Assembly: GCA_017516285.1 (NCBI GenBank)
Contig: JAFXDD010000003.1
Span: 68,130-132,129 of the forward strand
Source of the DNA: Lachnospiraceae bacterium
GTDB taxonomy: Bacteria; Bacillota_A; Clostridia; Lachnospirales; Lachnospiraceae
Direction of reading: 5' to 3'
Length of the DNA stretch: 64,000 bases
Part shown: positions 43,849 through 64,000 of the stretch, piece by piece
How the letters are laid out: each line of letters opens with the position of its first letter
Position numbering within the stretch: the stretch's first letter is position 1
Notes under the pieces: generated by a model
The model's input: only the letters and a program-made list of their open reading frames with translations
Databases searched by the model: none
What the model was told of the DNA's origin: nothing
Made by a program: the position numbers and the translations under genes

Positions 43849-44913
43849 ATGAAAATCAAATTGGCTATTTTAGATAGAGATACAAGCTATTTAAACAGGA
43901 TTGTGTCTGCTTTTAGTGCCAGATATGCAGATAAGTTTGAAATATATTCTTTTACGGATGAAGCCGTGGCAATGGATACACTGAATCAAGCTAAGATTGA
44001 CGTGTTAGTTGCAAGTGATTTATTTGATATCGACGTTACAAAGCTGCCAAGACGATGCAGCTTTGCATATTTTGTGGAATCGGCAGATGTAGAGAGCGTG
44101 AATGGACAACGTGCTATTTGCAAATTTCAGAAGGCAGATTTGATTTATAGGCAAATTCTCTCTGCTTTTTCAGAAAATGCAGGCAGTATCTCAGGTCTTA
44201 AATTTGATGGAGAAAGCTCTAAGATTATTGCATTTTGTTCTGTGAGCGGCGGTGTAGGTGGATCCTCCATGGCTGCGGCTTGTGCTGTGCATTTTGCTGC
44301 CAAGGGACACAAAACCTTGTACCTCAATTTGGAAAAGTTTGGTGCTACAGATGTGTTCTTTCATGGAGAAGGCCAGTTTGACATGAGCGATATTATATAT
44401 GCTTTAAAGAGTAAAAAGGCTAATCTGGCCATGAAGCTGGAGAGCTGTGCGAAGCAGGATAAGACAGGTGTGCATTTCTATTCACAGACCAAGATAGCAT
44501 TGGATATGTTGGAGCTTGGTACAGAGGACATTTTGCGCCTGATTTCCGAGATTAAAATATCCGGTATTTATGATTATATTATTTTGGATTTGGATTTTGG
44601 AATTGATAAAAATACCCTTGAAATATTAAAACAAACACATGCTATTGTATGGGTAGGTGATGGAGAGGAAATTTCCAATGCCAAGATTTTCAGGGCATTC
44701 ACAGCACTGACTACTATGGAGCAGAATGCAGATGTGCCGGTGAACAGCAGAATTAAGCTGATTTACAATAAGTTCAGTAATAAGACGGGCAAGAGTGTGG
44801 ACGAAATTGGTTTAAAGAGTATTGGCGGGGCACCGAGATATGAGCATGCCAGCACGGCGGATGTGATTAGGCAGCTTTCTTCACTGGATGCATTTGACAA
44901 GATTATTTCTTAA
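43849..44913 (+). CDS. tadZ: TadZ/CpaE-like pilus localisation ATPase
   Basis: A 354-residue TadZ/CpaE protein: an N-terminal receiver-like domain (MKIKLAILDRDTSYLNRIVS, then DVLVASDLFDIDV) and a C-terminal MinD/ParA-type ATPase domain (about 125-350). The P-loop region is SVSGGVGGSSMAAA (from residue 131), where the usual ATPase Lys-Thr/Ser is replaced by Gly-Ser, a deviant Walker A as in described TadZ proteins. Later FDKIIS ends the protein. TadZ marks the position of the pilus machine in the cell. It is the first gene of the Tad operon, 15 bp before tadA. Confidence 0.9.
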   Translation: MKIKLAILDRDTSYLNRIVSAFSARYADKFEIYSFTDEAVAMDTLNQAKIDVLVASDLFDIDVTKLPRRCSFAYFVESADVESVNGQRAICKFQKADLIYRQILSAFSENAGSISGLKFDGESSKIIAFCSVSGGVGGSSMAAACAVHFAAKGHKTLYLNLEKFGATDVFFHGEGQFDMSDIIYALKSKKANLAMKLESCAKQDKTGVHFYSQTKIALDMLELGTEDILRLISEIKISGIYDYIILDLDFGIDKNTLEILKQTHAIVWVGDGEEISNAKIFRAFTALTTMEQNADVPVNSRIKLIYNKFSNKTGKSVDEIGLKSIGGAPRYEHASTADVIRQLSSLDAFDKIIS

Positions 44914-44928
44914 GAGGCGGTTTTAGGC

Positions 44929-61151: not shown

Positions 61152-61171
61152 ACAAGATGAGGAGAAAAGAC

Positions 61172-64000
61172 ATGAATTACAACAAGAAAAAATTACTGAA
61201 CCGCATTTGGGCTGCAGTATTGTCCGTGGCAATGGTAATTACCATGCTGCCGATGAATGTAGCGGCTGTAGATGCACAGCAGACAAATACAATACCTGAA
61301 GAGAGTTATAGCGTTCAAGGTTACGAAGGAACGTATGATGGAGATGAGCATAGTGTTGACGTTACTGTTAATTTAGGAAATGAAATAAATTATACAGTAG
61401 AATATAGCGAAGATGAAGGGGAGAATAAAACATATAGTACTACCAAACCGAGTATTAAAGATGTCGGTGAAAAGACAGTATATGTTAAAATTTCAGCAGA
61501 TGGATATGAAGAAGTGGTTGAAACGGTAACTCTTAAAATTACACAAGCTGAAAGAACGGATTTTGGATTTTCTTCTGTTCAAGATAAAGTGGTTTTAACA
61601 TATCGAGAGGATTTAACTTGTACATACACTGCAACCAGCACGCAAGAAGCACAAGAGGTTTCATATGAATCATCAAATAGTGAAATTGCCACTGTTGCGG
61701 AAAATGGTAAGGTGTCAATATTAGAGCCCGGCACGGTTACAATCATTGCAACTATGGGAGCAAGTACTAACTATTTTGAAAGTAGTGCTTCGTATACAAT
61801 TGTTGTAAAGGATGTGAGAAGTGATTTTGGATTTGAACAAGAAACTTATGCAACAACTTATGGTGAGAATGGAAATAAGTTTCAAGCGCAGATAAATTTA
61901 AGTGAGGGTGACAACGCAAAGGTATCATATACGATTACAGAACAGTTGTGCGGTGAAAGCTCTGTGGAAGGTGAGGATAGTGTTGCGACTATTGATGAAG
62001 AGACAGGTGAAGTTACAATTCTCACAGCCGGAACAATAAACGTAAAAGCATGTGTAGCGGAAAACGATACTTATGCAGCAGCTGAGGCAGAGTACACATT
62101 AAATATTGCAAAAGCTGACCAAACAGCTTTCAGCTTTGAACAGACAGAATATAGCATAGAATATGGTGTAACCGAGGTGGAGCTGAACGTTACCGGAAAG
62201 TTTAGCGATGGTAAAGTAACTTATAAGATTGTTGATGGCAGTGATGTAAAGCTTGAAGAAACTGAAAATGGTGTAAAGGTGATTTTTGAAGATCAGCAGG
62301 AAGATAGTGTAATTAAAATAGAAGCAAATGCTCCTGAGGATATGAAATATAATGCAAAGAATGTTATTGCAATAATTAAGGTTTCAGCTTCATCAGAAAC
62401 GGTCAGTGAATATAAATTTGATGGTACATTGGGTAGTAACGGCTGGTATATTTCAAATGTAGATATAAAGCCACAGTCTCCATACACTCATATTAGTAAG
62501 AGTAACGGTTTCTTGACTAATTGGTCAAAGTCTTTGACAATTGAGGATGAAGGCGAAACAGAGGCTTTTGATTTTTATTTGAGACAAAATTGGAAAAAGA
62601 TAGTTAAAGCAAATGTAGAGAATTTCGGAACGATTAAAATTGATAAATCTAAGCCGACAGATTTAAAAATTTCATATTCAGATCCAATAAATACGATTCA
62701 GAGTGAAGAAGGCGCTTACATGTATTATCAAGATGAAGTTATAGTTACTGTTAGTGCCAAGGATGAAATTTCAGGCATTGATTATTTTACTTATAATCTT
62801 GGTAATGATAATAATGATGTGAAATTGAATGAGCTATTAACTGGTCAAGGGATATCTAGTGCTACTTTTAATATTAAAAGAGAATATGTAGGCAAAATTA
62901 GTTTTACTGCTTATGATTGTGCAGGGCTTAGTGAGACTAAGACAGCTAATGAGGTAATAGTTGTTGATACTACGGCTCCTGATATTTATATGGAATACAA
63001 GGATGATAGTGTTTCTAATGGAATGTATTTCAAAGAAAGAACAGCTGTAATAAAAATTACAGAGGAAAACTTTGATGCAAAAAAGGTTAGTATTGATATT
63101 ACAATTTCAGATAAAGAAAATGAAGATGATGTAATTGATTTTAACGAGTATTTGCAGAATGCAGATAATTGGGACCACAAAGAAACCGTGCATACAATTG
63201 AGCTTAAGTTTACAAAAAGTGCTAGTTATAAGTTGAACGGAATTGAATGTACTGATTTAGCAAATAGAAAACAAACTCAATTTACAATAAAAGAAGAAAC
63301 TGTAGCGGATAGGGAGTTTATTATCGATAATGTTCCATCAGTTATAAAGGTAAGTTACAGTAATAACAATGTCAAAAATGGTAAATACTTTGATGCAAAA
63401 AGAGTCGCAATCCTTGAAATCACAGAGCGTAATTTTAATGCGAAGAATGTTACGTCAGATATTTTGATGACACTTCATTCTCAGGACGACGCATTTGCTT
63501 ATGAAGAATATTTACATAATGTGGATAACTGGAACACAGAAGGAATTAAGCATACAATCGAGATTCCTTTTGAAGAAGAGGGAGAGTATAAATTCAAAAT
63601 ATTATATACTGATATGGCTGGAAATGTATGTAGTAAAATCGATCCTGCAGAAGGAACAGCAGCGGCAACAGAATTTGTGATAGATAAAACAAATCCTGTA
63701 ATTAACGTAAGCTACACGAATAATGCAGTGGCCAATGGCAAATATTTTGATGCGGACAGAACCGCTGTTATCAAGGTAACAGAAAGAAACTTTGATGCAG
63801 CCAAGGTGGCATCAAAGATAACGGCAAGCGATTATGCAGAAGGTACAGAAATCTATGATTACGTAGCAAAGCTGCAGAATATAGAAAACTGGACAAAGGA
63901 TGGTATTGAATATACCATAGAGCTTCCGTTCTCCGCAGAGGCAGCGTATGTGTTTGACATTATGGTTACCGATCTTGCAGAAAGAGTCTGTGACGAGGAA
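61172..64000 (+). CDS. secreted Ig-like repeat adhesin (3' end outside window)
   Basis: At least 943 codons, open at the window edge. A signal peptide (KKKLLNRIWAAVLSVAMVIT, cut near NVAAVDA) leads to the exterior. Ig-like/BIG2 domains follow (for example around 130-240: YESSNSEIATVAENGKVSI, ILEPGTVTIIAT), then three roughly 119-120-residue repeats beginning near residues 599, 719 and 838 with D...P.I.V.Y.NN.V.NGKYFD..R.A..K.TERNFDA. ATG 61172 has GAGGAGAAAAG upstream. It starts 20 bp after the ETTVLT protein and is probably the surface product served by the Tad system. The true length and anchor are unknown. Confidence 0.9.
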   Translation, partial: MNYNKKKLLNRIWAAVLSVAMVITMLPMNVAAVDAQQTNTIPEESYSVQGYEGTYDGDEHSVDVTVNLGNEINYTVEYSEDEGENKTYSTTKPSIKDVGEKTVYVKISADGYEEVVETVTLKITQAERTDFGFSSVQDKVVLTYREDLTCTYTATSTQEAQEVSYESSNSEIATVAENGKVSILEPGTVTIIATMGASTNYFESSASYTIVVKDVRSDFGFEQETYATTYGENGNKFQAQINLSEGDNAKVSYTITEQLCGESSVEGEDSVATIDEETGEVTILTAGTINVKACVAENDTYAAAEAEYTLNIAKADQTAFSFEQTEYSIEYGVTEVELNVTGKFSDGKVTYKIVDGSDVKLEETENGVKVIFEDQQEDSVIKIEANAPEDMKYNAKNVIAIIKVSASSETVSEYKFDGTLGSNGWYISNVDIKPQSPYTHISKSNGFLTNWSKSLTIEDEGETEAFDFYLRQNWKKIVKANVENFGTIKIDKSKPTDLKISYSDPINTIQSEEGAYMYYQDEVIVTVSAKDEISGIDYFTYNLGNDNNDVKLNELLTGQGISSATFNIKREYVGKISFTAYDCAGLSETKTANEVIVVDTTAPDIYMEYKDDSVSNGMYFKERTAVIKITEENFDAKKVSIDITISDKENEDDVIDFNEYLQNADNWDHKETVHTIELKFTKSASYKLNGIECTDLANRKQTQFTIKEETVADREFIIDNVPSVIKVSYSNNNVKNGKYFDAKRVAILEITERNFNAKNVTSDILMTLHSQDDAFAYEEYLHNVDNWNTEGIKHTIEIPFEEEGEYKFKILYTDMAGNVCSKIDPAEGTAAATEFVIDKTNPVINVSYTNNAVANGKYFDADRTAVIKVTERNFDAAKVASKITASDYAEGTEIYDYVAKLQNIENWTKDGIEYTIELPFSAEAAYVFDIMVTDLAERVCDEE

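Follow-up and report, generated by a model that had tools for sequence, protein, structure and literature searches.

By analogy, the nearest functional parallel to the locus described here is the threonine phosphorylation pathway of the type VI secretion system (T6SS), PpkA-PppA-Fha, in which a kinase, a phosphatase and an FHA protein accompany an envelope machine and Fha reads a phosphothreonine of the membrane component TssL (PMC3953482). A second set of similar parts is that of the type VII secretion systems (T7SS) T7SSe and T7SSj (Garrett et al. 2024, PMC11217815), whose T7SSe component list comprises a membrane kinase, a PPM phosphatase, a DUF6382-FHA protein (TseJ), a small single-pass protein with a short cytoplasmic stretch (TseK) and a large Ig-like protein with a signal peptide and a C-terminal membrane helix (TsdI/TseI). 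Pseudokinase folds are found in Gram-positive envelope machines as EssB/YukC of the T7SS and TraF of the type IV secretion system (T4SS) (PMC13037476), and FHA domains are known from Tad machines in CpaF class III and the Myxococcus Kil apparatus (PMC12019362, PMC8460266). Here we describe, in a 64,000-nucleotide stretch of contig JAFXDD010000003.1 from a Lachnospiraceae bacterium (the window), a Tad pilus locus followed by genes for a DUF6382-FHA adaptor, a PP2C-type phosphatase, a Hanks-type kinase, a membrane protein bearing an array of ETTVL motifs and a giant Ig-like protein. This is a real, conserved variant of the Tad locus that appears to be new. Our reading, which we regard as evenly poised between right and wrong, is that the pilus locus has its own threonine-phosphorylation genes, forming a switch in which the kinase marks the first threonine of ETTVL and the FHA adaptor binds it.

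Genes of the window were called from open reading frames (ORFs) and Pfam matches, which yield 16 consecutive plus-strand genes from tadZ to the Ig-like giant (43849-64000) and bear out the gene identities, places and order given in an earlier note on this DNA. With the gene starts chosen in this analysis, the intergenic gaps are 2-43 bp at 14 of the 15 junctions, most of which the earlier note had put below 50 bp; the single exception is the step from the FHA to the PP2C gene, at 223 bp. The earlier note also spoke of a fused Tad operon and kinase module, but the genes are merely adjacent. The first ten constitute the Tad locus, and the remaining six, all on the plus strand, encode a WG-repeat protein with an N-terminal membrane segment judged by eye (54932..56233; PF14903, five stretches), the adaptor, composed of a predicted pseudokinase (DUF6382), a linker and an FHA domain (56245..57810; PF19909 at 1.5e-19, PF00498 at 1.2e-13), the PP2C-type phosphatase (58034..58801; PF13672 at 2.2e-10, with DGMGG, CSDG and RDNIS), the kinase (58819..60522; PF00069 at 3.6e-47), the single-pass ETTVL protein, which has a conserved C-terminal tail and four strict xTTVL motifs (60525..61151; by alignment), and the Ig-like protein, with a signal peptide recognised by eye (61157..64000; Big_2 at 1.4e-08), which continues past the window end. 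The membrane protein had been given a start at 60504; it is probably 60525, where most aligned relatives begin.

This arrangement is conserved. One scan of genome contigs with an alignment of the membrane protein returned 16 loci (L001-L016; G numbers below denote genomes) that were not chosen by motif, and genes in relatives were labelled by phmmer with the window proteins, by which distant genes may be missed. The PP2C, kinase and ETTVL genes share one strand in 16 of 16 loci. The FHA gene lies upstream in 15, the exception being L010, whose contig begins at the PP2C gene, and an Ig-like match lies downstream in 13, the other three being cut by the contig end. Tad genes are present in all 12 loci whose contig reaches the Tad side (in L015 the peptidase only; the contigs of L003, L006, L010 and L016 end before it), and in each of the eight of these that were extended tadZ, tadA, tadB and tadC are complete and on the FHA strand. 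The conserved neighbourhood that the earlier note expected upstream of the kinase cassette is therefore there, and no terminator boundary of the kind it had named as contrary evidence stands out between the Tad genes and the FHA module: no plus-strand terminator-like site was found at 54.2-58.1 kb, and such sites in 45-64 kb are at chance level (11 found against 9.3 expected). In 13 of 15 relatives 12-134 bp separate the FHA from the PP2C gene, and L006 and L013 have a longer gap there. In the window this gap holds a short plus-strand frame (57822-57971) broken by an in-frame TAA at 57864-57866, and between its FHA and PP2C genes L006 encodes a similar peptide (918-989, E 0.004); the frame is possibly a lost small membrane protein.

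The window kinase retains all four catalytic motifs, the VAIK lysine, HRD, DFG and APE (as VKEV, YRDMKPAN, DFG and APE), and by sequence qualifies as an active Hanks kinase; by eye, it has one transmembrane segment and an external C-terminal part. A housekeeping cell-wall kinase of the PASTA/PrkC type was ruled out, as Pfam gave no match to PASTA repeats in the window kinase at E 0.01. The Ig-like giant, which had been described as a secreted adhesin, looks membrane-anchored instead, because the protein ends in a hydrophobic segment and a basic tail, judged by eye, in 10 of 10 complete relatives.

With regard to the adaptor, the family to which G001 belongs was represented by 150 genomes, of which 145 have DUF6382. 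From the listed matches we picked 40 regions by hand, mostly away from contig ends. tadA stands beside DUF6382 in 40 of 40, and the FHA protein is on the tadC strand in all 34 regions where it was labelled, the other six yielding DUF6382 without an FHA label. These ordinary Tad loci share with the window tadZ-A-B-C, DUF5702, DUF6382-FHA and, mostly, one T-x-x-L motif, and differ in having no labelled local kinase or phosphatase in 39 of 40 regions. Because tadA is present in all 40 and kinase with PP2C in one only (L066), the FHA adaptor is, from its gene neighbourhoods, a regular Tad gene in this family, to which the kinase cassette looks like an addition. Both kinds of locus co-occur in G001, G014 and G015. 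The locus in L066 (G043) is a third variant, in which Tad, WG and FHA genes are joined by PP2C and a kinase of 956 residues.

Structure prediction and Foldseek assign DUF6382 a predicted kinase fold. EssB is among the Foldseek rows listed for the full-length adaptor model and is not among the best 50 rows listed for the DUF6382 domain alone. In an alignment of DUF6382 (A3, 33 rows) no column has lysine in 60% of rows; aspartate reaches 60% in two columns (window D49 and Q146), which by their spacing do not correspond to HRD or DFG, and HRD in two rows and D[FLIY]G in four lie away from the expected catalytic places. DUF6382 is accordingly predicted to be a pseudokinase without the catalytic lysine and aspartate, joined to an FHA domain whose phosphothreonine-binding core residues are intact. 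A word search of the main text of two pseudokinase sources, PMC12599244 and PMC10870513, did not find DUF6382 named. Elsewhere, two FHA proteins encoded near T7SS EssC genes (L071:15414-16973 and L072:14122-15618) have an outer part that by eye looks protease-like, together with two T-[ST]-[VL]-L motifs directly before the FHA domain.

The motif itself is shared between the membrane protein and the adaptor. The membrane-protein tails of the 16 loci contain 48 copies of [EAGD]Tx[VLI][LM], at least one in each, against 1.1 by shuffling; this pattern was loosened after looking at the data, and the loci had been found by patterns outside the array. Arrays hold the motif 1 to 7 times with variable spacers, that of L015 consisting of near-perfect tandem copies. 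Just upstream of the FHA domain, alignment with relatives places two GETTVL motifs in the window adaptor (57433..57483, plus strand), and an [ED]T-x-[VL]-L pair precedes this domain in 14 of 15 loci (L015 has one), with the first threonine constant and the next residue T, M, V or I. Larger sets, the best-ranked 120 of 3408 FHA matches and 120 of 702 array matches, were ranked by likeness to motif-holding queries and are biased to that extent: 115 of the 120 FHA proteins carry the core motif twice close to that domain, and the array proteins average 3.5 core motifs against 0.12. In alignments drawn from these sets (A2, 30 rows; A1, 34 rows), 29 of the 30 aligned adaptor sequences have two GETTVL copies, and the remaining one reads GETMVL-GETTVL. 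FHA domains prefer a particular residue at the third position after the phosphothreonine, and a first threonine with leucine at +3 fits this preference. A phosphorylated ETTS motif lies N-terminal to the FHA domain of GarA (PMC12321487), and the FHA domain of DgcB binds a peptide from its own N-terminal region (PMC6733907); a literature search for ETTVL matched six papers, all with unrelated titles.

That the motif was gained only in kinase-bearing loci was ruled out: a set of 35 ordinary adaptors takes in L085, L086 and every labelled FHA protein of L027-L065, where 33 of 39 regions have one. Within this set, 32 carry a single T-x-[hydrophobic]-[hydrophobic] in the corresponding stretch, against 5.4 by shuffling. 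Of these 32, 27 have it 47 to 52 residues before SRxH, and the second motif of kinase-bearing loci mostly lies at 53. Spacing this close to fixed could reflect a structural strand, and T-x-x-L before the FHA domain may be no phosphorylation site at all, with the membrane-protein array a repeat without phosphorylation. We consider this improbable. The variable spacers and changing copy number of the motif in a membrane protein of another kind argue against a strand, as does its occurrence in the two FHA proteins near T7SS genes, whose N-terminal part is different; moreover, of the 425 copies in the best-ranked set, 423 have leucine at +3 and 372 have glutamate before the threonine.

If these genes act as a switch, the external part of the kinase would sense a surface signal, and the kinase would phosphorylate T-x-x-L threonines on two proteins that both carry the motif: the membrane protein (60525-61151), within its tail, and the adaptor (56245-57810), within its linker. 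The FHA domain of the adaptor could then collect on several marked sites in a multivalent manner, while the pseudokinase half, given its predicted fold and by analogy with the hubs EssB and TraF, may dock on the pilus platform or motor, and PP2C would reset the switch. The switch would act on extension or retraction of the pilus, on how the anchored Ig-like protein is displayed, or on both.

A number of findings, the near-fixed spacing of the motif among them, weigh against such a switch. Superpositions of DUF6382 on single kinases are loose (root mean square deviation ~3 A, ~10% identity), and in the first sample no more than 9 of the 16 array proteins and 11 of the 15 adaptors have two or more strict xTTVL copies. 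The 39 ordinary Tad regions mentioned above have no labelled kinase or PP2C within ~10 kb of DUF6382. Further such findings come from a second sample, in which the membrane-protein alignment, used again to search 391 genomes of the class, gave ten places in nine genomes. Four of these (G001 contig 139, G182, G384 and G369) are Tad-linked. The other six PP2C-kinase-array places (G250, G001 contig 5, G509, G189, G543 and G344) have no labelled Tad gene in the fetched stretches, DUF6382-FHA is unlabelled in five of the six, and three of nine newly fetched array proteins (L094, L100 and the Tad-linked L090) lack T[TSA][VLI][LMI].

The second sample rules out that the cassette always accompanies Tad genes and, since it occurs without them in six of ten places, the kinase-phosphatase-array cassette is, on gene content, evidently a separable module. 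In a kinase tree whose bootstrap had not settled, kinases of Tad-linked and Tad-less cassettes group together, those nearest to the window kinase being L001 and L002 from uncultured Lachnospiraceae. This mixed tree and the Tad-less places make the cassette appear portable, and paired with the pilus in one group of relatives. The single system proposed in the earlier note accordingly stands in part: the neighbourhood is kept and the link between FHA protein and Tad is wider than had been proposed, but the cassette also exists without Tad.

These Tad-less cassettes keep alive a different account, in which the kinase, phosphatase, ETTVL protein and Ig-like giant form a self-contained envelope module concerned only with the Ig-like protein or cell-wall contact, and the Tad neighbour merely shares transcription. 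An Ig-like match in the fetched stretches of four of the six Tad-less places is in keeping with this, as is the position of the G250 cassette beside YceG. However, the Tad adaptor in the clade of the window carries the same motif and sits between the two halves, and Tad linkage holds in 12 of 12 loci of the first sample and in the four closest matches of the second. On balance we think an envelope module of this kind unlikely, though it deserves to be kept in mind. At the G250 locus (L092), which lacks Tad, YceG is followed by two DUF6382-FHA genes, PP2C, the kinase and the array protein, a neighbourhood that hints at a cell-wall role.

A T7SS remains to be weighed against the Tad switch, as five parts of the locus match the T7SSe component list (PMC11217815), and the window, which ends inside the Ig gene, could in principle be part of such a system with its ATPase lying past the window end. 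In ten relatives with a complete Ig gene, however, the 0.8-4.3 kb available after it gave no match to EssC, WXG100 or YukD (Pfam was run on seven); the loci scanned have unrelated genes there, e.g. glycoside hydrolase, macro domain and zinc ribbons. Across L001-L016 and L077-L084, one EssC (TseC) query found no match, nor did one query each for WXG100 and YukD, with which divergent small genes can be missed, and no EssC is labelled in the fetched stretches around the six Tad-less places. EssC exceeded the family cut-off in 1 of 15 genomes, ~190 kb away on the contig. In the kinase tree, six kinases from the four T7SS loci that were sampled make up a separate clade; the seventh (L070) pairs with L066 on long branches, nearer the window kinase. 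We set T7SS membership aside on the missing EssC and the kinase tree, and regard it as very improbable.

Compared by component description, the loci studied here therefore differ from T7SSe and T7SSj in being attached to a Tad pilus without a match to EssC, WXG100 or YukD; in the available text of PMC11217815 no ETTVL motif is named and DUF6382 is not called a pseudokinase. The T6SS pathway serves another machine, and neither a pseudokinase half nor a motif array is known to be part of it; the Pfam matches of the 16 genes include no T6SS structural gene, although no search aimed at T6SS genes was made. In GarA/OdhI, which likewise has phosphorylated ETTS N-terminal to an FHA domain (PMC12321487), a short tail precedes a single FHA domain and the role is metabolic, whereas in the adaptor a predicted pseudokinase and a long linker come first, and ETTVL comes as a pair and recurs in a second protein. 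Unlike EssB/YukC and TraF, which are membrane proteins, the adaptor combines the predicted fold with an FHA domain and is associated with Tad. The FHA-Tad link is not itself new, since it is known from CpaF class III and the Kil apparatus, but there the domain is on the motor or other proteins, the available text of PMC12019362 and PMC8460266 mentions no kinase-phosphatase cassette, and the word kinase is absent from the main text of the Kil paper. Within the literature searched, writer, eraser, array and pseudokinase reader together at a Tad locus appear to be new: titles and abstract beginnings retrieved with Tad, FHA, kinase and pseudokinase terms name no such locus (in one case the best 20 of 70 records), one paper was found that names DUF6382, and we found none naming the DUF5702 family or treating a tad locus, an FHA domain and Firmicutes together, subscription papers lying outside these searches.

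The Tad part of the window holds the TadZ, TadA, TadB/C, Flp pilin, TadE-type pseudopilin and A24 peptidase of a Tad (type IVc) pilus locus, all on the plus strand. It opens with tadZ, an atypical receiver with a ParA-like ATPase part (43849..44913; PF21194 at 4e-47, AAA_31 weak), the motor ATPase tadA/cpaF (44929..46167; PF00437 at 8.7e-61) and the platform proteins tadB (46181..47041; assigned by position and a weak T2SSF (PF00482) match under the curated cut-off) and tadC (47045..47923; PF00482 at 1.9e-08). The Flp1-like major pilin (47967..48185; PF16982 at 1.5e-12) is followed by a TadE-like pseudopilin (48213..48929; PF07811 at 3.5e-06), whose start is likely 48270, in which case the gap before it is 84 bp. 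A stem-loop lies between the pilin gene and that likely start (48223-48240), the count of such sites being at chance. Next are the TadG-like DUF5702 protein (48942..52181; PF18960 at 6.6e-23, with a weak Tad N-terminus match under cut-off), an LRR_5 lipoprotein, judged as such by eye (52194..52919; PF13306 at 2e-12), a probable second TadE-type pseudopilin, recognised from its N-terminus by eye (52945..54219; no Pfam match, relatives in several loci), and the A24 prepilin peptidase (54244..54924; PF01478 at 2.3e-11). In 7 of the 16 loci, the window not being among them, a multi-pass membrane protein (by eye) of ~165 residues is encoded between the ETTVL protein and the Ig gene (L003:6015, L004:10505, L005:10612, L007:10547, L013:10528, L014:10540 and L015:7676); the L004 copy, the only one run against Pfam, had no match. 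Elsewhere in the window are a T-box leader (36110-36363) and a tRNA gene (20023-20094).

We know of no described trigger for Tad pili in monoderm gut bacteria. Taken to its widest extent, and with rather less than even confidence, our reading is that DUF6382-FHA may be the pseudokinase hub of Gram-positive Tad pili, the third such machine beside the T7SS with EssB and the T4SS with TraF, and that a kinase-phosphatase pair dedicated to this task in a single clade of gut Clostridia would write a countable ETTVL ladder on a membrane scaffold, the number of tags setting the engagement of the hub and of the pilus or the Ig-like giant. If true, this would put names to the writer, eraser, tag and reader of a pilus, would give a fold and a likely role to DUF6382, a domain present in nearly all sampled genomes of one family, and would make the dead kinase as hub a common principle across three Gram-positive envelope machines.

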